Assembly (NCBI GenBank): GCA_018434355.1
Contig: JAHDPL010000019.1
Coordinates: forward strand, 1 to 64,000
Direction of reading: 5' to 3'
Length of the DNA stretch: 64,000 nt
Source of the DNA: Sporomusaceae bacterium
GTDB lineage: Bacteria; Bacillota; Negativicutes; UBA1444
The notes below the pieces were generated by a model. That model had not been told where the DNA came from, searched no databases, and saw only the letters and a list, made by a program, of their open reading frames with translations. The position numbers and the translations under genes were made by a program. Position 1 is the stretch's first letter; every line of letters begins with the position of its first letter. Positions 34,700-52,730 of the stretch are shown piece after piece.

Positions 34700-35446
34700 T
34701 TACTTGCTTTCAATATCTTGCATTTTTCTGTATTGCATCGGTGAAACCCCTGTCTTATTTTTAAAACAGGTGGCAAAATAAGCAGCGTCGTTAAAGCCAA
34801 CCTTGCCGGCGATATCGGTAATCGAATAATCCGTTGCCTTCAATAGCTCCATCGCTTTGGCCAACCGCTGCTCTTGTATATAGTCGACGATCGATTGCCC
34901 TGTCAGCAGTTTGAACGTCCGGCTCAAGTGATAGGAACTGACATAGATAGCTTTAGCGATATCATTCAAATGAATCGGTTTGTCCAAATTGGCAGCAACA
35001 TAGTCGTTCACTGCGCTAATCACTGCTGATCGCTTCTTTTTGTCACAGGCTGTCGCCGCATCCGTCTCCACGCAGCGAGCCGCAACGGTATTGATCAGCT
35101 CCGCCACATCAGCCGGTTTAATCGGTTTCAATAAAAAATCTGCAACCCCGCTGCGAAACGCAGTCCGAGCATAGTCAAACTCGTTATACGCCGACACAAT
35201 CACCACCGTCGGCTTGTGGTCTTTGGCCAGAATCATTTCCGCCGCCTTTAACCCGTCAAGCCCCGGCATGCGAATATCCAGAAACACCAAGTCCGGCATA
35301 AACTCAGCCGCCAGCTTTACCGCATCCGTCCCGTTATCGACTTCGGCAACCGCAGAAACCGGCAACTTTTCCTTGCTTACCACCAATTTGATAAACTGAC
35401 GCACCGTCGCTTCATCATCGGCGACCAAGACTTTAATATTCCGCAT
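34700..35446 (-). CDS. AraC-type response regulator
   Basis: A 248-residue regulator. Receiver domain (1-120) with acidic pocket DDE, phospho-acceptor Asp57 (LVFLDIRMPG) and Lys (LLKPIKP); AraC DNA-binding domain (about 145-245) with IAKAIYVSSYHLSRTFKLLTG and the second helix pair FNDAAYFATCFKNKTGVSPMQYRK. It overlaps the kinase gene by 14 bases. It probably controls the PduL-2-oxoacid-Buk operon or the following ilvD operon. Confidence 0.92.
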   Translation of the reverse strand: MRNIKVLVADDEATVRQFIKLVVSKEKLPVSAVAEVDNGTDAVKLAAEFMPDLVFLDIRMPGLDGLKAAEMILAKDHKPTVVIVSAYNEFDYARTAFRSGVADFLLKPIKPADVAELINTVAARCVETDAATACDKKKRSAVISAVNDYVAANLDKPIHLNDIAKAIYVSSYHLSRTFKLLTGQSIVDYIQEQRLAKAMELLKATDYSITDIAGKVGFNDAAYFATCFKNKTGVSPMQYRKMQDIESK

Positions 35447-42344: not shown

Positions 42345-43268
42345 TTAATAGGCGACTTTGTCAATTCCTTTCAACCCTAAAATCTGCCTTGCTTCGTCAG
42401 GGGAAGCAATTTCCTGGCCAAGTTGCTCGACGATGGAACGAATCTGCAGCACTTGCTCGGCGCTGCTTTTTGCAAGTACACCCGGTCGCAAATACAGGTT
42501 GTCTTCCAATCCGACCCGTACATTGCCGCCCATTGCGGCGGCGGCGGCAGTCAGAGAAAACTGCGCTTTCCCAGCTGCTGCACAAGACCAGTTGAAATCA
42601 CCCAACAGATCTTTGGCAGTTTTTACCATGAATGCCAAATTTTCCACTGTAGCTGGAATGCCACCCAGTATTCCCATAACAAACTGGATATAGATAGGTC
42701 GCTTGATAATGCCGCGATTGAGCAAAAAAGCGACATTGTTGATCATACCGACATCATAGACTTCGAACTCCGGACAGGTATGGTTTTCATACATGGTAGT
42801 AACGTAGTATTCGATGCCTTTGAAGGTATTCTGAAAAATCATATCCCAGGTTCCTTTGAGATAAGGAATTTCCCAATCGAATTTCGGATTGGTGATCCGA
42901 GCAGCTGCCGGTTCAAGAACAAAATTGACAGATCCTGCATTGCAGGAAGCTAATTCCGGTTTCATGTCGGGAATACCCGCTATGCGTTGTTCGATGGTCA
43001 TACCTAGTCCACCGCCGGTTGTTATGCAGATCGCAACATTGCAACGCGCTTTGATTCCCGATACGATTTGCCGGATTATGCCAATATCGGGACTGGGACG
43101 TCCGGTTTCCGGATCACGGGCGTGGATGTGTACGGCTGCAGCTCCTGCCTGGTAAGCACCGACCGCGTCATCGATGATTTGTTGAGGAGTGATTGGCAAG
43201 TAGGGAGACATGCTGGGGGTGTGGATTCCACCGGTAATTGCCGCTGTGATGATGGTTTTTTTCGCCAT
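42345..43268 (-). CDS. Beta-keto acid cleavage enzyme (BKACE, DUF849), copy 1
   Basis: A 307-residue TIM-barrel enzyme. The zinc and catalytic residues of the family are visible: Glu in the N-terminal ITAAITGGIHT strand, HIHAR (H-x-H), ITTGG, SVNF and the GGNVRVGLEDN loop with Arg and Glu-Asp. BKACE joins a beta-keto acid with acetyl-CoA to give acetoacetate and a new acyl-CoA. The ATG at 43268 has GGAGGTG upstream. It follows an AtoE-type carrier gene by 38 bases. It is clearly similar to copy 2 at 47346. The exact keto acid is unknown. Confidence 0.9.
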   Translation of the reverse strand: MAKKTIITAAITGGIHTPSMSPYLPITPQQIIDDAVGAYQAGAAAVHIHARDPETGRPSPDIGIIRQIVSGIKARCNVAICITTGGGLGMTIEQRIAGIPDMKPELASCNAGSVNFVLEPAAARITNPKFDWEIPYLKGTWDMIFQNTFKGIEYYVTTMYENHTCPEFEVYDVGMINNVAFLLNRGIIKRPIYIQFVMGILGGIPATVENLAFMVKTAKDLLGDFNWSCAAAGKAQFSLTAAAAAMGGNVRVGLEDNLYLRPGVLAKSSAEQVLQIRSIVEQLGQEIASPDEARQILGLKGIDKVAY

Positions 43269-43306
43269 GATCTTCACCTCCGGTTGAATTTGGCCAAGGA
43301 GTGAGC

Positions 43307-44692
43307 TTAAAACCAACTCGGGAAATAAAGCAGAGCAATGGTTACAACAATAAACATCCAGATCATCACGATGAAGCCGTAGGGCAATATGTCCTGGAAC
43401 TTGAGTTTATAGGCGCCAAGGATTGGCAACGCCCAGAACGGTTGAATCAAATTGGTAAGTTCGTCGCCAAAAGTGTAGGCATTGATTACGTAAGGGATAT
43501 TGGCGCCCAATTCTTTAGCTGCAGGCAGGATGTACGGCGCTTCAATAACAAATTTTGAACCGCCGGAAGGAACGAAGAAATTGAGGATGGACGAGTAGAC
43601 AAATACAATCCAAGGAAAAGTGTGGGCGGTAGAGATGGCCACAAACCACTTGGCAATGATTCCTGCAAGGCCGGAATTCATAATTATTCCAAAAATCCCT
43701 GCGTACAACGGAAACTGGATGATGACGCCACTGACGGTTCCGACGCCGCGTTGAACGGAAGAGACAAAGTTATATGCGGAACCTTGTAGAATCAAACCCA
43801 AAATGAAAAAGATAAAGTTGAGCACATTTAGGTCCAACTTGCCGATGCCGCGCGTAATCAGAAACTGTCCAATCCAAAATAGACCGGCAATGCCAATAAA
43901 CCAAGGCAGTACTGGCGAACGATCCCATCGGTCGGCAGGGGTTAGTTCGTGGCTTGGTTTTTCCTCCGGTTTCTTGGAAAATTCAACGACCAGCGCTTCG
44001 CTAATCTCTTTTGCATCATCTTTTTTCGGTGCAATAAACAAGAGGAGAATCGGCAGGGAAGCAATCAAGATCAGATTGGTGACAAGCAGATGGATATCAA
44101 AAGTAGTTTGACTGATGGGGATGACACCGACAACTTTTTCCATAAAATGGCCCGGCGTGGCGACTAATAATTGAGCTGCCATCGACGGGCCATTGGTGCA
44201 GATGATTGCAACGTATGAAATTGCGGCCAGCAACCGATAGTCAAGTCCTAACCCGCGCTTGGCGATTGCCAGTTCCCTGCCCATGATAATCGATGTCATC
44301 ATGCCGATTCCCCAGTGCATCCACCACAGTACTCCCAAAATCAAGGAATACATAACAATGCAAGCTTCTCTGGTTTGTGGCAGCGAAACCATCCAGGAAA
44401 TCCCACGGCGGATCAATTTTGAATCAGCAACGGTAAACCCAGTAATCATCAGAATACACATCTGCATGGAAAATGTGAGCAATACCCAGAATCCTTTGAC
44501 CCAATCGTTGACCAGTTCGACAGGTCCGTGAGGAGTGAGCGCCCAAGCCATGACATAAATCGCTACCGACAATCCAAGAACAAAAACCATTGAGTCAGGG
44601 ACCCACCTGAGGCTCCACTCGGAAAATGAGATAATGAAATTTGATACCCAGCTTTTCCCTTGATTTGTTTGGCTTGTGGACGGGTTTGCCAT
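43307..44692 (-). CDS. atoE: Short-chain fatty acid transporter (AtoE family)
   Basis: A 461-residue carrier with about 12 membrane helices. The AtoE pattern is clear: WVPDSMVFVLGLSVAIYVMAW, INHWG-like MHWGIGMMTSIIMGRELA and NFFVPSGGSKFVIEAPYILPAA. The family imports acetoacetate, butyrate and similar acids. Because acetoacetate is the product of BKACE and AtoE is the acetoacetate carrier, import of a keto acid or export of acetoacetate are both possible. GAGGTGAG precedes the ATG. Confidence 0.92.
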   Translation of the reverse strand: MANPSTSQTNQGKSWVSNFIISFSEWSLRWVPDSMVFVLGLSVAIYVMAWALTPHGPVELVNDWVKGFWVLLTFSMQMCILMITGFTVADSKLIRRGISWMVSLPQTREACIVMYSLILGVLWWMHWGIGMMTSIIMGRELAIAKRGLGLDYRLLAAISYVAIICTNGPSMAAQLLVATPGHFMEKVVGVIPISQTTFDIHLLVTNLILIASLPILLLFIAPKKDDAKEISEALVVEFSKKPEEKPSHELTPADRWDRSPVLPWFIGIAGLFWIGQFLITRGIGKLDLNVLNFIFFILGLILQGSAYNFVSSVQRGVGTVSGVIIQFPLYAGIFGIIMNSGLAGIIAKWFVAISTAHTFPWIVFVYSSILNFFVPSGGSKFVIEAPYILPAAKELGANIPYVINAYTFGDELTNLIQPFWALPILGAYKLKFQDILPYGFIVMIWMFIVVTIALLYFPSWF

Positions 44693-44781
44693 TCAATCTC
44701 ACCTCAATTTTTAGTTTTTTGGATGTGCGCGTTGTCACCAGAATGCCTGATACGCAGTCGTTTGTGCCAACAATCCCTCCT

Positions 44782-45597
44782 TCAGTCTTCCAATAAATTT
44801 AGAATGTGCGGCAATTCATTTGCGAGCGCCTCGTCTCCCAATACTTTTCCAAGTCTTTGCAGTAACTTACAAGCAAAAATATCGTGTCTGATATAGTTGG
44901 CGATAAGCCTTGAAATGCCTGGATGGGTTGTCCAAAAACCACTCCAGTCTCTGCCGGGAATTTGGCCCATGAAAAGTCCGGCCTGGTCGTCGGCGACCAA
45001 CGTTAGAGTTCCTTGATGCCTTTCCAGTATCAGATCGCTCATAATGTGGCGGAATACTTTGCCGATGGGCAAATATTCGGGACCGTACTGAACCGTGACT
45101 ACTTTAACCCCACGTGATTCTGCTGCGTGCAGCGCTGCTTCGATGTCGCCGCTTTCCCGTTGCCAAAAACTGATTAAGATCGAACTTTGGGCTGAGCAAA
45201 TCAGTTGGCAGGCTTTGCTGATCAACGTATCATAACCGTCTTGCTTCCAGAGGACGATGGATTGGGTCGGCGAGGCAACTAAAGGCAAGTTTTCTGATAA
45301 ATACTTTTCCGTTTGGCTGAACAGGTTGCGTTGCTGCCGCAACAATTCTTTGTAAGGAAGTGGTTCGTATGTCACTGGCGCGGTTTCCAACGCAGCAACC
45401 AAACCCTTTTGCTTAAGTCGGTCAAGCGTTTCATAAATCTTGGGACCGGGAACTCCCGAACGACGACTAATATCGTTGCCATGGGCGGGATGTTTTGACA
45501 ATAGAGCCAGATAGGTCTTTGCTTCGTAACCGGTAAGACCAAAATCGTTAAGTGCTTTGACTAAGTTGGCTTGCAATTCGTCATTCAATTCATACAA
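44782..45597 (-). CDS. TrmB-family transcriptional regulator
   Basis: A 271-residue regulator. N-terminal winged helix (about 12-75: FGLTGYEAKTYLALL, ISRRSGVPGPKIYETLDRLKQKGLV), then a phospholipase-D-like sensory domain (about 105-265). TrmB proteins are best known as sugar sensors in archaea; bacterial ones are less studied. It lies 90 bases upstream of the atoE start on the same strand and is divergent from the sigma-54 activator. A perfect dyad covers its own promoter. Confidence 0.9.
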   Translation of the reverse strand: MYELNDELQANLVKALNDFGLTGYEAKTYLALLSKHPAHGNDISRRSGVPGPKIYETLDRLKQKGLVAALETAPVTYEPLPYKELLRQQRNLFSQTEKYLSENLPLVASPTQSIVLWKQDGYDTLISKACQLICSAQSSILISFWQRESGDIEAALHAAESRGVKVVTVQYGPEYLPIGKVFRHIMSDLILERHQGTLTLVADDQAGLFMGQIPGRDWSGFWTTHPGISRLIANYIRHDIFACKLLQRLGKVLGDEALANELPHILNLLED

Positions 45598-45778: not shown

Positions 45779-47155
45779 GTGGATCGTTCAAGCGAAGCCT
45801 ACAAAGAATTCCTCGAGAACGTATTGGAGCAAGTCGATGGAACGATTGTCACCGATAGCGAAGGGACCGTCGTCTATCTCAATAAAAAATATGCCGAAAT
45901 GCTCGGTGTTGATCCGGTAACGGCCATTGGCAAGCACGCCCGCGAAATCATCCCGCAAACCCGGATGGATATTGTGGCCCAAACCGGCCAGGAAGAAATC
46001 GGTTCCGTTCACATGATCAATGGCGTGACTCCAGTTGTCTGCAATCGCATCCCTTTGATCAAGGACGGGAAAACGTTTGGAGCGGTAGCTTTTACGACGT
46101 TTCGCAAACTAGATGAAGTGGCGGGCCTGTTCAGTGAAATTAACCGCCTCAATCTGGAACTGAAAGAATACAAATCCGAACTGATTAAACTGCGTGAAAC
46201 GAAATATACGTTGAACCAAATTGTTGGCTCTTCGGTTCAACTGAATCAGGTCAAAGAAATTATCAAAAAAGTGGCGCCATCCAAATTGGCTGTTCTGATC
46301 AGCGGCGAAACCGGAACCGGCAAGGAACTTTTTGCCCAAGCGATTCACCAACTTAGTCCGAGAAAGCACAAACCGTTCATCCGGATCAATTGCGCAGCGA
46401 TTCCCAAAGACCTTTTGGAATCGGAACTGTTCGGATACGAGGAAGGCGCGTTCAGCGGGGCTAAGAAAGGCGGCAAGCCGGGCAAGTTTGAAATGGCCAA
46501 TGGCGGTACGCTACTGCTGGATGAAATTAACGAGTTGCCGATTTATCTGCAATCAAAACTCCTGCGCATCATTCAGGAGCAAGAGATCGAACGGGTCGGC
46601 GGCGTAAAAACGATCAAACTTGATGTGCGGTTGGTTTGCACAACAAACCGAAATATGCCGGAACTGGTCGCGAGTGGCGATTTTCGCGAAGACCTGTTCT
46701 ACCGGATCAATGTGGTGGAAGTGGCTATTCCGGCTCTGCGCGAGCGCAATACGGACATTCGAGAACTTGCGCAACATTTTATCAAGAAGATCAATGCCAA
46801 TCATGGACTGGGGATAACGGGAATCAGCGAAGACATCCTCCAACTGTTTGCCGAATACAAATGGCCGGGCAATATCCGCGAACTCGAACATGTCATGGAA
46901 CGGGCGGCTGTCATGGCGATTTCCGGCGAACTGAACACATCGCATTTTGATTATCTCATGCCACGGTTGTTGGGAGAAGCTGATGCCGAAGCCCGGAAAA
47001 CGGCCGGGCTCGAACACGTAAAAACCGTTGCTGAAAAACAGGCCATCCTCAATGCCTTGGCAAAGACAGGCGGCAATAAAACCCTTGCAGCGAAAGAGCT
47101 AAATATCCACCGCACTGTTCTCTATACCAAATTAAAAAAATACGGCATCGTGTAG
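45779..47155 (+). CDS. Sigma-54-dependent PAS activator of the BKACE/GntP operon
   Basis: A 458-residue enhancer-binding protein. PAS (about 8-115), AAA+ (145-370) with Walker A GETGTGKE (176-183), contact loop GAFSGA (223-228, Thr to Ser) and Walker B LLLDE (245-249), and a Fis-type helix-turn-helix at the end (LAAKELNIHRTVLYTKLKKYG). GTG start with AGAAGG upstream. A perfect sigma-54 promoter and two dyads lie directly downstream, so it almost surely controls the BKACE operon in response to a ligand bound by the PAS domain. Confidence 0.93.
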   Translation: MDRSSEAYKEFLENVLEQVDGTIVTDSEGTVVYLNKKYAEMLGVDPVTAIGKHAREIIPQTRMDIVAQTGQEEIGSVHMINGVTPVVCNRIPLIKDGKTFGAVAFTTFRKLDEVAGLFSEINRLNLELKEYKSELIKLRETKYTLNQIVGSSVQLNQVKEIIKKVAPSKLAVLISGETGTGKELFAQAIHQLSPRKHKPFIRINCAAIPKDLLESELFGYEEGAFSGAKKGGKPGKFEMANGGTLLLDEINELPIYLQSKLLRIIQEQEIERVGGVKTIKLDVRLVCTTNRNMPELVASGDFREDLFYRINVVEVAIPALRERNTDIRELAQHFIKKINANHGLGITGISEDILQLFAEYKWPGNIRELEHVMERAAVMAISGELNTSHFDYLMPRLLGEADAEARKTAGLEHVKTVAEKQAILNALAKTGGNKTLAAKELNIHRTVLYTKLKKYGIV

Positions 47156-47190
47156 CGGTTTCGCTACACAGCCGCAGCGATTCCACTACA
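47150..47190. promoter_or_regulatory. Tandem activator sites overlapping the end of the sigma-54 activator gene
   Basis: GTGTAGCG-GTTT-CGCTACAC (47150-47169) is a perfect 8-base dyad that includes the stop codon. CGCAGCG-ATTC-CACTACA (47173-47190) is a weaker copy centred 22 bp away, on the same helical face. They are about 70-90 bp upstream of the sigma-54 promoter. Confidence 0.7.
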
Positions 47191-47241: not shown

Positions 47242-47257
47242 TGGCACGCTATTTGCA
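47242..47257 (+). promoter_or_regulatory. Sigma-54 promoter of the BKACE/hydroxyacid dehydrogenase/permease operon
   Basis: TGGCACGCTATTTGCA matches the sigma-54 consensus at every fixed position. Transcription would begin near 47268, about 78 bases before the BKACE start. Confidence 0.95.
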
Positions 47258-47345: not shown

Positions 47346-48269
47346 ATGGCGCAAAAGTTGATCATTACCGCAGCAGTTACCGGTGCAGTCCACGTTCCCA
47401 GCATGACCCCCTATTTGCCGATTACGCCAGAGCAAATCATTGATGATGCGGTTGCCGCGGGTGAGGCGGGCGCTGCCGTAGTCCACATTCACGCACGCAA
47501 TCCCGAGACGGGACGACCAACCAGCGATTTAAGCCTGATGGCTGAGATTGTGTCCGGAATCAAAAAACGTTCGGAAATCGTCATTTGTATTACCACCGGC
47601 GGACAACTGGGAATGTCTCTGGAAGAGCGAATTGCCCCGGTGTCGGTGTTTAAGCCGGAGCTAGCCTCATGCAATGCCGGATCAGTAAATTTCGTATTGG
47701 CGCCAGCGGCGGCCAAAATCAAGCAGCCGCTCTATGACTGGGAAATTCCCTTTCTGGAAGGAACAAACGACCTGGTCTTTGCTAACACATTCAAAGGACT
47801 GGAATACTACATCACCACCATGAATCAGCACGGAACACTTCCGGAATTTGAAGTGTATGACGTGGGGATGGTCAATAACATCGCATATTTCATCAAAAAA
47901 GGCATCGTGAAAAAACCGGTCTACATCCAGTTTGTCATGGGCATTTTGGGCGGCATTCCCGCCACCATCGACAACCTGAACTTTTTAGTCAAAACAGCCA
48001 AAGAACAAATCGGTGAATTTGAATGGTCTTGCGCCGCAGCCGGACGCCATCAAATGCCGCTGACCACGGCTGCCGTGGCGATGGGCGGCAATGTGAGGGT
48101 CGGCTTGGAAGACAATATCTTTAGTAAACCAGGAATCCTGGCCAAAGCCAGCAGCGAGCAAGTAACACTGATACGAAATGTTGCGGATGCTCTTGGCAGA
48201 GATGTTGCTTCTCCGGCGGAAGCTCGAACCATTTTGGGGCTCAAGGGAAATGATAAAGTCGGCTTCTAG
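47346..48269 (+). CDS. Beta-keto acid cleavage enzyme (BKACE, DUF849), copy 2
   Basis: A 307-residue paralogue of the enzyme at 42345, colinear along its length. It keeps HIHAR, ITTGG, SCNAGSVNF and GGNVRVGLEDN, hence the zinc site and the Arg/Glu-Asp of the active site. AAGGAGAGG precedes the ATG. As first gene after the sigma-54 promoter it would take the beta-keto acid made by the dehydrogenase encoded next and, with acetyl-CoA, release acetoacetate plus an acyl-CoA. The lysine-fermentation reaction (3-keto-5-aminohexanoate) is unlikely because no lysine-fermentation genes are near. Confidence 0.9.
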   Translation: MAQKLIITAAVTGAVHVPSMTPYLPITPEQIIDDAVAAGEAGAAVVHIHARNPETGRPTSDLSLMAEIVSGIKKRSEIVICITTGGQLGMSLEERIAPVSVFKPELASCNAGSVNFVLAPAAAKIKQPLYDWEIPFLEGTNDLVFANTFKGLEYYITTMNQHGTLPEFEVYDVGMVNNIAYFIKKGIVKKPVYIQFVMGILGGIPATIDNLNFLVKTAKEQIGEFEWSCAAAGRHQMPLTTAAVAMGGNVRVGLEDNIFSKPGILAKASSEQVTLIRNVADALGRDVASPAEARTILGLKGNDKVGF

Positions 48270-48308
48270 CGGCGGAACAAATCTTACTTGATAAGGAGAG
48301 CAAAAGTC

Positions 48309-49253
48309 ATGATCAGGAAAATCGGTATTATCGGCGCTGGAACCATGGGGCATGGAATCGCCGAATCCTTTGCAATGTACGGTTACGACGTAAATCTGTA
48401 TGACATTAATGCCGCAGCGCTGGAAAAAGCTAAGCTGGAAATGGAACAAGAATTGGTAATGTTGGCGGAAGAGGCAATATTCGCCAGAGCAGAACTGCCG
48501 AAAATTCTTGAACGCATTAAGCTGTCAACGGATCTGAAGCAAACGGTCGAAGACCGCGACTATGTCATTGAATGTGCGCCGGAGAATTTGGAACTAAAGA
48601 AAAACTTGTTCAAACAACTGGATGAAATCTGCCCGGCCAAAACGATCCTGGCCAGCAACACTTCGAGCCTGCCGCTCGGTGAAATGATGGAATTGGTTGG
48701 CGAAGACAGAAAAAAGCGGATGATGGTCAACCACATGTTCAATCCCGCCCATTTGATTCCGCTGGTTGAACTCTCCTTTTTCGGCAATATGCCGGAAGAA
48801 ATCTTTGCGGAAGTGGAAGATTTATACTTGTCCATCAAAAAGCAACCCATCCGGATTGTCAAAGATGTGCCCGGCTTAGTCGCCAACCGTATCATGCAGG
48901 GCGTTGCCCGTGAAGTATTTTCCTTGATCGAGCAAGGTGTAGCTGATGCTGCCGATATCGACCGGGCGCTGAAATTTGGTCCCGCGTTCCGCTATGCAAC
49001 CACCGGCCAATTGGAGGTATCCGACTTTGGCGGCCTGGATATTTGGTGCATCGTGGGCGATAACCTGCTGAAAGCCATGGATAACTCGCAAAGTGCGAAC
49101 AAATTGCTGCGGCAAAAAGTAAGTGAAGGAAAATTGGGGGTGAAGAGCGGCGAAGGGTTTTATCGGTACGATCCCGACAAAGTGGCCGACATCAAGATAC
49201 ATTTCATGAAAAAATTGATCCGGCAGTTGAAAGTCTCGCAAACTTATGTTTAA
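48309..49253 (+). CDS. 3-hydroxyacyl-CoA-dehydrogenase-family enzyme, probably acting on a free beta-hydroxy acid
   Basis: A 314-residue NAD enzyme: IGIIGAGTMGHGIAESFAM (Rossmann), SNTSSLPLGEM, then NHMFNPAHLIPLVEL holding the catalytic His-Asn, and a C-terminal helical domain ending KLGVKSGEGFYRY. The H-x-x-N-P...PLVE form resembles L-carnitine dehydrogenase and lambda-crystallin/gulonate dehydrogenase more than fatty-acid-oxidation enzymes (which usually have HFFNP...M.L.E). So a free acid substrate is likely. AAGGAGAG precedes the ATG. It supplies the keto acid for BKACE. Confidence 0.85.
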   Translation: MIRKIGIIGAGTMGHGIAESFAMYGYDVNLYDINAAALEKAKLEMEQELVMLAEEAIFARAELPKILERIKLSTDLKQTVEDRDYVIECAPENLELKKNLFKQLDEICPAKTILASNTSSLPLGEMMELVGEDRKKRMMVNHMFNPAHLIPLVELSFFGNMPEEIFAEVEDLYLSIKKQPIRIVKDVPGLVANRIMQGVAREVFSLIEQGVADAADIDRALKFGPAFRYATTGQLEVSDFGGLDIWCIVGDNLLKAMDNSQSANKLLRQKVSEGKLGVKSGEGFYRYDPDKVADIKIHFMKKLIRQLKVSQTYV

Positions 49254-49286
49254 GTTGACAGCAATAAAACAGGAGGGATAAATTAA

Positions 49287-50579
49287 ATGGATCTTAGTGT
49301 AATAGGCATCCTTATCTCATTGGCGGTTCTGGTCATTCTTGCCCTGCGTGGCTGGCACATCATTCTGCTTGCGCCGATCGCTACTGTAATTGTTTGTCTG
49401 TTCTCGGGGCTCGATGTTCTGCAAAGTCTCTATGGTCCATACATGGACGGCTTTATCAGTTACGCCAAACGGTTTTATCTGGTTTTCTTGGGCGCGTCCT
49501 TGTTTGCAAAATATATGGATGATTCGGGCGCAGCAAAAAAAATCGCCCTTGCCATAATGGGCAAAGTTGGCAAAGACAAACCGTTTCCCATGTTGGTTGC
49601 CATATGGGTGATTACCTCCGTGTTGACCTATGGCGGCGTGAATTTGTGGGTTGTCGCGTTTGCACTGATTCCGATTGCTTTGCCCATCTTCAAGGAAATG
49701 AATCTGCCTTGGCATCTTTGCCTTGCTCCGTTCATGCTTGGCCTGGGTACGGCTACCATGACGATGTTCCCCGGAACTCCGGCGATTCAAAACATCATGC
49801 CGACGAAATATTTAGGAACCACGGCAGCGGCCGCGCCTCTTATCGGCGTAGTTTCGTCCATCGTTTGCTCGGCTCTCGGGTTATACTACACCAAGTGGGC
49901 GTTGAAAAAAACGCAACAGCGCGGCGAAGTATTTTCACAACCTGAAAATTTGACAATCGGTAATGTGGATAAAGTCGAGCTGCCCTCATTGATCGTATCG
50001 ATTATTCCGCCGGCAGCGTTGCTAATCATTCTAAACGTCTTCAAGATTGACATTGTGTACTCGCTTCTCGCCGGAACCCTACTGTGTATCGTATTGTTTT
50101 ACAAATATGTTGGCAATCACTTGGATACCCTTAACAAGGGCGCGGTCAACACCATCCTGCCCTTGGTAAACACCTGCGCCGACGTAGGGTTTGGCAAAGT
50201 TGTCGCCGCGACAACCGGCTTCACAGTAGCGGTAAATGCTTTGATGAATATTCCCGGCCATCCGCTGATCTCCATGGCTGTCGCAACCAACTTGTTGGCA
50301 GGGCTCACAGGGTCCGGGTCCGGTGGTCTGGGAATTGCACTGGAAGTATTGATCCCCAAATATCAAGCGCTGGGAATCAATCCGGAAGTTATTCACCGTA
50401 TTGCCTCAATGGCTTGCGGCGGCTTGGACACCATGCCGCACAACGGCGCAGTAATCACCATTTTGGCGGTCTTTGGCTTAACGCACAAAACCGGATACAA
50501 GCATATGTTTGCCACTTGTGTGGTTGTTCCGCTGATCACAATCGTTCCGGCGATTGTCATGGCAATCCTGTTCTATTAA
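49287..50579 (+). CDS. GntP-family permease
   Basis: A 430-residue membrane protein with 11-13 helices and GntP-type repeats: YGGVNLWVVAFALIPIALPIF, TMTMFPGTPAIQNIMPT and the loop TGSGSGGLGIALEVL, CGGLDTMPHNGAVITILAV. Members carry gluconate, 3-hydroxybutyrate and related hydroxy acids with protons. As third gene of the BKACE operon it probably imports the beta-hydroxy acid. AGGAGGG precedes the start. Confidence 0.9.
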   Translation: MDLSVIGILISLAVLVILALRGWHIILLAPIATVIVCLFSGLDVLQSLYGPYMDGFISYAKRFYLVFLGASLFAKYMDDSGAAKKIALAIMGKVGKDKPFPMLVAIWVITSVLTYGGVNLWVVAFALIPIALPIFKEMNLPWHLCLAPFMLGLGTATMTMFPGTPAIQNIMPTKYLGTTAAAAPLIGVVSSIVCSALGLYYTKWALKKTQQRGEVFSQPENLTIGNVDKVELPSLIVSIIPPAALLIILNVFKIDIVYSLLAGTLLCIVLFYKYVGNHLDTLNKGAVNTILPLVNTCADVGFGKVVAATTGFTVAVNALMNIPGHPLISMAVATNLLAGLTGSGSGGLGIALEVLIPKYQALGINPEVIHRIASMACGGLDTMPHNGAVITILAVFGLTHKTGYKHMFATCVVVPLITIVPAIVMAILFY

Positions 50580-50608: not shown

Positions 50609-50657
50609 CGCCCCTGCGGGGCGTACAACGAAAGCCCGCCACCGTCGAGTGGCGGGC
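50609..50657. terminator. Two hairpins between convergent permease and HD-GYP genes
   Basis: CGCCCC-TGC-GGGGCG (50609-50623) and a perfect 9-bp stem GCCCGCCAC/GTGGCGGGC (50634-50657) with a 6-base loop. The second is flanked by a short T-rich stretch and can serve both directions. Confidence 0.75.
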
Positions 50658-50660
50658 TCT

Positions 50661-52730
50661 TCAGTTTTGCTTCATTTCCCGCTGCAAGGCAATAAACACT
50701 TCCACCAGCTCAGCGTCAAACTGTGAACCGGCGCAGCGTTGCAACTCTTCTATCGCCTCATCGTCCGACATCGCCTTTCGATAAGGCCGGTCGTTGGTCA
50801 TCGCGTCAAATGCATCCACAATTCCAAGGACGCGGCACTCGATGGGAATCTGTTCGCCGCTGATGCCGAGCGGGTAGCCGTTGCCGTCCCAATGCTCCTG
50901 GTGTTTCAAGATGCTGTCGGCAATCGGCTCCAGATCAGGCGAAGACTTGGCGATCCGGTAGCCAATCTCGCAATGTTGCCGCATAATCACCTGCTCAGCG
51001 TCGGTCAATTTTCCCGGCTTTTTCAGGATACTGTCAGGGATGCCTACTTTGCCAATATCATGGAATTTTGCCAACAGTCGCATGTCGGCCACGACGGCTG
51101 GAGCTAGCTGCAGTGTGCGGCCCATTTGCTCCATCAGGTCGCCGAGCCGGTCGGCGTGTCCTTCGGTAATATGATCCTTTGCTTCCAGGGCCACCATCAT
51201 TGTTTTGACGATTGAGCCGCGAACGCTCAGGCTTTGATGCATTTTCTGACGGTACATGTTGTTGTCGGCGGTTTTAAACAAGATATCGGTATCTTCCGAT
51301 GCCTCGCCGACTGCCCATCCCATCGACACGCTCAGTGGAAGCTGCGGGCAATTTTGGTTGTGTTCGTCAATTTTCGCCCGGTACACTTCCTCCAATTCTC
51401 TCATCATTGCGGGCGTGCCACCGGCGACCACCACGGCCATTTCATCGCCGCCAATCCTAGCCGCGTAACTTGGCGCGACAATCCCGGCGTTTAGCAGGGC
51501 TGCGATCACCTTCAAAATCTCATCGCCCTGGCGGTGTCCCAGAGTATCATTGATCAGCTTCAACCCATCAACATCACAGACAAAGAGTCCGAATGGCTCA
51601 TGCGCACCAGAATTTTTGCGGGCCATGTCGTTTTCAAAATAGGAACGGTTGAATATTCCGGTCAACGGATCGTGTTGCCGCAAGAACTCCGCCGTGCGTT
51701 GACTCTGCTCCAGCTTGCCGTGCGATTCGGTCAAATCGCGCACGCTTTGCTGCAGTTCCAGCTCCGAGCGGCGTTGTTTGCGGGCGGCGACCAGCAGCCG
51801 TCCCGAGAAAAACAAAATGAACAGCGACACCAAGCCGGCTACCGTGTAATAAACCTGGATGCGGTGCACCATCGGCGATAACGCCGCTTCAGCGATTCCT
51901 ACCTGCACGACCAATGGATAGTCAGGCATCACCCGGTAGCTGTAAAAACGCGGCGTGTTAAAATTCATGCCCCGGCTATAATAGAATCCCGTGCTGCTTT
52001 GCGCGAGCTTTTGCCACAGCAGCGCGCTGGAAAGATCGTAATTGATCTCTTTCTCGACGTTGCTGGCCCTGACAATCTTGTCCAGTCCGGTCAGGCGAAC
52101 CACATAGTTTTCATTGAATTTCATGTCGTTATAGAACCGGGAAAAATAGAACGGTGACATCGCGATTGTTGCAATGCCGCCGAAACTGCCGTCGGCTTGG
52201 TTAATCCGCCGGGACAGCTGGATGGTGTATTTCTGTGAAACGCGCCCCAGTGCGGCTTTGCCGATAAAAAGCTTATTTGCGTCTTCATGGCGGTGGGAAT
52301 AAAAATGCGGCAGGTCGGCGAAGCTGGCCTGCGGGTCGACCGGTAGCGCACTGACGACCGGACGGCCTTGTACATTGAGGATCGATGTTTGGGTAATTAA
52401 GGAATCAGTCGCGATTTGGCGCAGGATGTCCGATAGCGCGACGGTGTTGCCGCGTCTTTCATATTCGTTTTTCAACAGCACCAAGTATTGTTCGTTGGTT
52501 TTGAGCACTCGCCGCACATGTTCTTCAAATGCCAGGGCAAATTTGTTGTTTTCCTCCCAGACGTTCTCGATAGTCGTCTTGCGGTCCCAGTCGGCGTGCA
52601 GGAACGCACCGCTCCAAGTAATGAAGAGCAGCAGCGCGCAGAAAACTGCAATGGATGGATTAGGCGATAACCAATTGCGAAAGATTTGTATGGCCTTATC
52701 CATTCGTTTCACGCCTTTCGAAGGTTTCAT
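50661..52730 (-). CDS. Membrane PDC/Cache sensor with GGDEF and HD-GYP domains
   Basis: A 689-residue c-di-GMP protein. Helix at about 25-45, extracytoplasmic PDC/dCache sensor (55-285), second helix (295-315), coiled linker, GGDEF domain (345-500) and HD-GYP domain (505-685). The cyclase loop reads GGDEM instead of GGDEF, while the phosphodiesterase is intact (KFHDIGKVGIPDSIL, HWDGNGYP). Net phosphodiesterase activity with GTP-binding regulation is plausible. Starts at 52730 (AGAGG upstream) or 52703 are both possible. No operon partner. Confidence 0.9.
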   Translation of the reverse strand: MKPSKGVKRMDKAIQIFRNWLSPNPSIAVFCALLLFITWSGAFLHADWDRKTTIENVWEENNKFALAFEEHVRRVLKTNEQYLVLLKNEYERRGNTVALSDILRQIATDSLITQTSILNVQGRPVVSALPVDPQASFADLPHFYSHRHEDANKLFIGKAALGRVSQKYTIQLSRRINQADGSFGGIATIAMSPFYFSRFYNDMKFNENYVVRLTGLDKIVRASNVEKEINYDLSSALLWQKLAQSSTGFYYSRGMNFNTPRFYSYRVMPDYPLVVQVGIAEAALSPMVHRIQVYYTVAGLVSLFILFFSGRLLVAARKQRRSELELQQSVRDLTESHGKLEQSQRTAEFLRQHDPLTGIFNRSYFENDMARKNSGAHEPFGLFVCDVDGLKLINDTLGHRQGDEILKVIAALLNAGIVAPSYAARIGGDEMAVVVAGGTPAMMRELEEVYRAKIDEHNQNCPQLPLSVSMGWAVGEASEDTDILFKTADNNMYRQKMHQSLSVRGSIVKTMMVALEAKDHITEGHADRLGDLMEQMGRTLQLAPAVVADMRLLAKFHDIGKVGIPDSILKKPGKLTDAEQVIMRQHCEIGYRIAKSSPDLEPIADSILKHQEHWDGNGYPLGISGEQIPIECRVLGIVDAFDAMTNDRPYRKAMSDDEAIEELQRCAGSQFDAELVEVFIALQREMKQN

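Follow-up and report, generated by a model that had tools for sequence, protein, structure and literature searches.

The stretch analyzed here (the window) comprises 64,000 nucleotides of the genome of a Sporomusaceae bacterium (GCA_018434355.1; positions 1 to 64,000 of contig JAHDPL010000019.1), and we focus on three adjacent genes at positions 47346 to 50579 that encode a beta-keto acid cleavage enzyme (BKACE), a dehydrogenase, and a carrier. The original prediction described these genes as a minimal three-gene unit for the use of an unidentified beta-hydroxy acid. All three are indeed open frames on the same strand at this position, separated by gaps of 39 and 33 bp, and the ATG at 48309 is a better start for the dehydrogenase than the TTG at 48288. 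The unit is not minimal, however, as it reaches upstream to 45779 and takes in an activator gene, a proposed operator, and a putative sigma-54 promoter, all of which had been overlooked. The features of the locus are as follows.

45779 to 47155, + strand: activator with PAS, sigma-54 interaction, and Fis-type helix-turn-helix domains, the proposed operon regulator (Pfam, orthologues).
47150 to 47169, no strand assigned: palindrome GTGTAGCGGTTTCGCTACAC (GTGTAG-N8-CTACAC), the proposed operator or upstream activating site.
47242 to 47256, + strand: putative sigma-54 (-24/-12) promoter TGGCACGCTATTTGC (exact match, conserved in copies of the module).
47346 to 48269, + strand: BKACE of the long class, 307 amino acids (PF05853).
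48309 to 49253, + strand: predicted 3-hydroxy acid dehydrogenase of the TfD clade, 314 amino acids (PF02737/PF00725, tree, residues).
49287 to 50579, + strand: carboxylate carrier of the IT superfamily, distantly GntP-like, 430 amino acids (PF02447 matches in relatives, fold).
50633 to 50658, + strand: terminator-like hairpin 3' of the operon (hairpin scan).

A scan for sigma-70 promoters and terminators gave counts no higher than in shuffled sequences, and this includes hairpins of the kind that follows the operon.

The dehydrogenase matches PF02737 (178.2 bits) and PF00725 (57 bits), and in a tree of 35 rows it falls in the clade of TfD, an enzyme that was assayed on free acids (available part of PMC10470551). 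It keeps the catalytic residues Ser119, His142, and Asn193 (Ser117, His138, and Asn188 in C. butyricum numbering), with the motif HMFNPAHLIPLVE starting at His142, and the CoA-contact residues Lys56 and Asn221 (C. butyricum numbering) are replaced by Ile57 and Ala226. The same source describes the Clostridium scatologenes enzyme (CsTfD) as lacking the CoA-contact Lys56 and Asn221 of 3-hydroxybutyryl-CoA dehydrogenase, with the catalytic residues retained. The position in the TfD clade and the replaced CoA-contact residues thus bear out the earlier proposal of a dehydrogenase for free acids. One could still propose a CoA thioester as the substrate, or carnitine or a different 3-hydroxy amino acid, since the superfamily of the dehydrogenase takes in both carnitine and 3-hydroxyacyl-CoA dehydrogenases. 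However, the missing CoA-contact residues disfavor a CoA-thioester dehydrogenase. Carnitine and charged substrates are disfavored by the profile scores of the dehydrogenase, which reaches 114 bits on the L-carnitine dehydrogenase model NF005471 (cut-off, 414) and 127.2 bits on a second carnitine model (cut-off, 592), and by Val15 of the BKACE, which occupies the place of the amino-binding Glu14 of Kce. The low score on NF005471 adds to the earlier remark that the carrier is not of the carnitine type, and we regard carnitine, other 3-hydroxy amino acids, and CoA thioesters as highly improbable.

The BKACE matches PF05853 over the whole model (positions 1 to 274 of 274; 347.5 bits against a cut-off of 24.8). 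It keeps His47 and His49 (HIH) and Glu255 (RVGLED), which we take to be the zinc ligands and which lie in motifs common to all seven BKACEs of the same genome. Since the dehydrogenase belongs to the TfD clade and has lost the CoA-contact residues, a route from a hydroxy acid to a keto acid, and from there to acetoacetate and an acyl-CoA, is very likely. The uptake, oxidation, and cleavage logic of the original prediction therefore stands, as does its proposal of acetoacetate as a product, given that AtoD and AtoA genes follow an orthologous operon.

As judged by sequence, the closest known relatives of the operon enzymes appear to be TfD and TAL, with which anaerobic phloroglucinol breakdown ends. 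According to the available part of PMC10470551, C. scatologenes converts phloroglucinol to dihydrophloroglucinol (PGR), then to (S)-3-hydroxy-5-oxohexanoate (DPGC), and then to triacetate (TfD), which TAL cleaves to acetoacetate and acetoacetyl-CoA. This pair had been missed in the original prediction, where the counterpart named was carnitine degradation, a weaker analogue. We reject phloroglucinol degradation for the Sporomusaceae bacterium, as the ring-opening enzyme DPGC is absent: no match was found in its genome at E<=1e-45, and its single PF04199 protein is 30% identical over 138 amino acids. Among 380 genomes of the class, DPGC occurs in four (G291, G293, G299, and G306) and the dehydrogenase (E<=1e-60) in 19, three of which also carry DPGC. 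In G306 (locus L138), a cyclase that shares Trp20 and Tyr22 with CsDPGC lies together with a short-chain dehydrogenase/reductase (SDR) beside AtoDA, an activator, a thiolase, a TAL, and a dehydrogenase. This DPGC-like cyclase and SDR make it very likely that some genomes use the clade's TAL-paired enzymes to degrade phloroglucinol. Most triacetate-type pairs, with DPGC in just 3 of the 19 dehydrogenase-bearing genomes, have no phloroglucinol pathway in sight. An SDR on contig C16 of the window's own genome, considered as a candidate phloroglucinol reductase, shares 37.7% identity with the SDR that adjoins DPGC in L138, a value that settles the matter neither way.

The two enzymes of the window differ from the triacetate enzymes at matching places. 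The residue after the catalytic histidine is Met (Met143 in the window) in all four dehydrogenases paired with a long-class BKACE, and it is Trp in 25 of the 26 TAL-paired enzymes (58 to 72% identity to the window dehydrogenase), with Phe in the remaining one, L097. Trp is also found in L025, which has no BKACE within 2.5 kb, and Phe in four outgroup rows. The four long-BKACE-paired dehydrogenases (window, G310, G314, and G294) form one group amid the TAL-paired ones with a support of 94/89, which is below the starred level and comes from a bootstrap that had not settled. On the side of the BKACE, Val15 aligns with Glu14 of Kce and Trp16 of CsTAL. All four module BKACEs compared have Val here (G294 was not among them), the 25 readable TAL N-termini have Trp (20) or Phe (5), one of the 26 being cut off, and the C16 copy has Trp. 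The CsTAL-type signature, Trp at the Glu14 place, is thus absent from the window BKACE. Some BKACEs are listed for hydrophobic or uncharged polar substrates (available part of PMC4922564), and the long-class enzyme would belong to this group.

Since both enzymes are aliphatic where the triacetate enzymes are aromatic, and since a separate TAL-type copy is present, the substrate is probably other than (S)-3-hydroxy-5-oxohexanoate. Nor does 3-hydroxybutyrate, suggested earlier as a test substrate, fit well, because its BKACE step would be degenerate: by this reasoning, acetoacetate and acetyl-CoA give the same pair back, which leads to a C5-C6 or a small polar 3-hydroxy acid. The preference of CsTfD for (S)- over (R)-3-hydroxybutyrate (available part of PMC10470551) points to the (S) series. 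Our best guess is a C5-C6 3-hydroxyalkanoate such as (S)-3-hydroxypentanoate, and a small polar acid (3,4-dihydroxybutanoate or a 2-deoxyaldonate) is a further candidate. Taken as a whole, the locus is best explained as an inducible operon that serves a small, uncharged (S)-3-hydroxy acid, a prediction that we make with moderate confidence.

Several observations weigh against this prediction. The aromatic-to-aliphatic change is a single evolutionary switch, which makes it no more than suggestive of a change of substrate, and the AlphaFold model of the dehydrogenase is too weak in its C-terminal half to place residue 143 inside or outside the pocket. Genes for a CoA transferase and a thiolase were not found in the window operon. 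The BKACE passes NCBIfam NF053538 (3,5-dioxohexanoate:acetyl-CoA acetone transferase), if narrowly (432.6 bits against a cut-off of 430), and BKACE15, a long-class enzyme, takes 3,5-dioxohexanoate (available part of PMC11961710). These two points, together with the 69 to 72% identity of the dehydrogenase to TAL-module relatives, including that of the DPGC-bearing G306, would suit an operon that imports (S)-3-hydroxy-5-oxohexanoate, oxidizes it to 3,5-dioxohexanoate, and cleaves this to acetoacetyl-CoA and acetoacetate, as in the lower phloroglucinol route. We consider this unlikely: DPGC is not in the genome, all four genomes with the module have a separate TAL-type copy, the aromatic residues are lost in both enzymes, and the NF053538 margin is just 2.6 bits, while BKACE paralogues of the same genome, whose partner genes are quite unlike those here, reach 442.8 and 453.4 bits.

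A polar, sugar-type acid is the other substrate that these observations bring into play. In G294, the same module parts occur with a true GntP permease, followed by AtoD-AtoA, and this permease passes the gluconate:H+ symporter model TIGR00791 (519 against a cut-off of 292.75). In Pseudomonas simiae, a dehydrogenase-BKACE pair with transporters serves deoxyribonate use, and similar acids are taken by a BKACE that shares 61% identity with the deoxyribonate enzyme (available part of PMC6365646). A 2-deoxy sugar acid or 3,4-dihydroxybutanoate could thus be processed in the manner of the oxidative deoxyribonate pathway. Yet the P. simiae dehydrogenase is an SDR rather than HADH-like according to the same source, the module has no kinase or other sugar-acid gene, and 3-hydroxybutyrate genes lie beside relatives of the carrier, so that we regard this alternative as distinctly improbable.

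The carrier itself has no match to Pfam GntP (PF02447), even at E<=10, which speaks against a plain GntP. Nevertheless, relatives at 51 to 52% identity pass the PF02447 gathering score (52.9 and 32.4 against 22.5 bits), and the AlphaFold model of the carrier (mean pLDDT, 87) matches carboxylate carriers of the IT superfamily, specifically MleN (integrative model, TM 0.73), INDY/NaDC/NaS, and TRAP. The earlier description as a GntP-type importer therefore stands at the level of the superfamily but not of the family. A PHROGs search and a sequence search of solved structures gave no result for this protein. In G304, G069, and G290, relatives of the carrier adjoin genes for an SDR, a thiolase, and a CoA transferase. 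In Lysinibacillus (L035 and L036), a 52%-identical carrier occurs with AtoD, AtoA, a 43%-identical dehydrogenase, an SDR, and a thiolase, with no BKACE, and on NF009093, the model for 3-hydroxybutyrate dehydrogenase, the L035 SDR scores 271.4 against a cut-off of 258. The setting of these carrier relatives is of the 3-hydroxybutyrate type. The Lysinibacillus operon in particular could suggest that the dehydrogenase and carrier of the window serve (S)-3-hydroxybutyrate and that the BKACE has a separate, accessory role. We find this very unlikely, as every module copy (window, C51, G310, G314, and G294) has the BKACE gene at the head of the operon, and CsTfD reduces acetoacetate at 0.02% of the triacetate rate (available part of PMC10470551). 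In a separate genome (G307, contig C1), three equal-score carrier matches at 34844, 60592, and 86340 recur at intervals of exactly 25748 bases, a spacing that would fit a tandem triplication of some 25.7 kb in the genome or the assembly.

The grouping of the genes is more than chance, since it recurs in other genomes. Specifically, the order regulator-BKACE-dehydrogenase-carrier is kept in the window's own genome (G000) and in two others, G310 and G314, at 77 to 91% identity; a family-level comparison covered two genomes only and was uninformative. The window's own genome has a further, broken copy on contig C51 (L013:8808-10265), in which an 813-nt in-frame deletion fuses residues 1 to 115 of the dehydrogenase to residues 61 to 430 of the carrier in one frame of 485 amino acids; an assembly error is not excluded here. 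This copy keeps the operator and the sigma-54 promoter, and a transporter set that looks TRAP-type by eye lies upstream. A further dehydrogenase, with Trp after the catalytic histidine, is encoded in each of the four genomes that have the module, and this coexistence of two types argues against mere redundancy.

The regulatory features recur together with the genes. The activator (PF00158, 236 bits; PF02954; PAS) has orthologues of 66 to 89% identity before the same module in C51, G310, G314, and G294. The sigma-54 sequence TGGCACG-N4-TTGC at 47242 is the sole exact match in the window. Allowing one mismatch gave 3 sites in the window against 2.30 expected, which is not above chance, and the promoter call therefore rests on the exact match and on conservation: the site lies 95 to 108 bases before the BKACE gene in all five module copies. 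Upstream of it, GTGTAG-N8-CTAC is likewise present in five of five copies and in none of eight promoters of other BKACE modules examined, seven of which have a sigma-54 site. Across all 3.9 Mb of the genome, the operator pattern is confined to the stretches before the window operon and the broken C51 paralogue (three rows for two places, as the palindrome is counted on both strands), and the pattern read backwards, used as a control, occurs five times. From these conserved sites, we infer that the palindrome GTGTAG-N8-CTACAC is the activator's site. A sigma-54 activator reportedly controls 3-hydroxybutyrate use in Pseudomonas aeruginosa (available part of PMC13390443).

Altogether, the operon for a small uncharged (S)-3-hydroxy acid would work as follows. 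The activator would sense the substrate or product through its PAS domain, bind GTGTAG-N8-CTACAC, and open the sigma-54 promoter, as the conserved sites suggest. The IT-superfamily carrier would bring in the free acid, and the TfD-clade dehydrogenase, judging from its clade and residues, would oxidize the 3-hydroxyl with NAD(P)+ and without CoA activation. By the chemistry of its family, the BKACE would convert the 3-oxo acid and acetyl-CoA to acetoacetate and the acyl-CoA of the tail, and a CoA transferase and a thiolase encoded elsewhere would consume the acetoacetate. More tentatively, we propose an undescribed pathway for a natural (S)-3-hydroxy acid in which a triacetate-type dehydrogenase switched its partner from TAL to a long-class BKACE, an aliphatic residue replaced an aromatic specificity residue in each enzyme, and the system has its own sigma-54 activator and private operator; this fuller account could well be correct, although we would not yet rely on it.

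Relatives of the two enzymes show how widely such parts are combined. A scan of species genomes with the dehydrogenase returned 53 loci, and the neighborhoods of the best 16 of these (L021-L036) were read. Most of L021-L034 have a sigma-54 activator, a CsTAL-type BKACE (66 to 86% identical to the C16 copy), a dehydrogenase, and a short-chain fatty acid transporter, and some have AtoDA and a thiolase; close relatives are carried by Anaerospora hongkongensis (L021). TAL-dehydrogenase-fatty acid transporter modules (L014:7255-10383 and L021-L034) are common in anaerobic Bacillota. For the long-class BKACE, 30 loci were returned from 18 of 380 class genomes. A ketopantoate-reductase-like gene lies beside the BKACE in 15 of the 30, and elsewhere the neighbor is an SDR, a distant HADH, or a transporter, in a survey that covers about one gene of flank per locus and in which false open reading frames hide some neighbors. 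The long BKACE would thus seem to be an interchangeable unit for cleavage that pairs with dehydrogenases of unrelated families. At L017:9453-11435 and L184-L209, a long BKACE, a ketopantoate-reductase-like protein, and a carrier lie behind a sigma-54 activator, which would represent another pathway. At L016:7219-12866 (contig C36 of the window's genome) is a Kce-type BKACE with Glu at the amino-binding place, whose neighbors resemble lysine 5,6-aminomutase by eye, as in a lysine fermentation cluster.

Two gene groups flank the operon. On the - strand at 42345-45597, a second long-class BKACE (NF053538, 442.8 bits) adjoins genes for a short-chain fatty acid transporter (PF02667) and for a regulator of the TrmB type. 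This group diverges from the operon, has no dehydrogenase, and might take up and cleave a keto acid. On the - strand at 50661-52730, converging on the operon end, lies a 689-amino-acid protein with motifs that are GGDEF-like and HD-GYP-like by eye.

The BKACE family is large and few of its physiological substrates are known, so the prediction, if true, would give the long class a physiological role in anaerobes. The operon is compact, its single dehydrogenase and single carrier being joined by a regulator and operator of their own, which should make the substrate findable, and the matched aromatic-to-aliphatic change in both partners amounts to a testable specificity rule that would separate the triacetate enzymes from the module group. 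In the literature searched, with most subscription journals outside the search, we recognized no description of a TfD-clade dehydrogenase with a long-class BKACE.

Among known systems, carnitine degradation by carnitine dehydrogenase and a BKACE follows the same reaction logic, but the window carrier is of another family and the dehydrogenase is far under the carnitine cut-offs. The BKACE and ketopantoate-reductase-like modules of the same bacterial class share the sigma-54 activator, the long BKACE, a dehydrogenase, and a carrier, whereas their dehydrogenase family is unrelated to that of the window and the GTGTAG operator is found in none of five promoters examined. The oxidative deoxyribonate pathway, as described in the available part of PMC6365646, likewise joins a dehydrogenase, a BKACE, and a transporter and leads from a 3-hydroxy acid to acetoacetate, but it uses an SDR dehydrogenase and MFS transporters and belongs to aerobic pseudomonads. 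BKACE15 of Paracoccus denitrificans (PDB 8RIO/8RIP/9HNF) is of the same long class, matches the window BKACE over its full length, and has Ile, also hydrophobic, at the place of Val15. It takes beta-ketopentanoate and beta-ketohexanoate, and the available part of PMC11961710 gives its physiological role as unknown and describes no paired TfD-clade dehydrogenase. Finally, the TfD/TAL system of C. scatologenes shares with the window the two reactions, the dehydrogenase clade, and the acetoacetate product, which is predicted here from the genes, and a sigma-54 activator is likewise present in the Bacillota relatives examined; in contrast to that system, the window replaces TAL with a long-class BKACE, shows Met and Val where Trp/Phe stand there, and has a carrier and an operator of its own.

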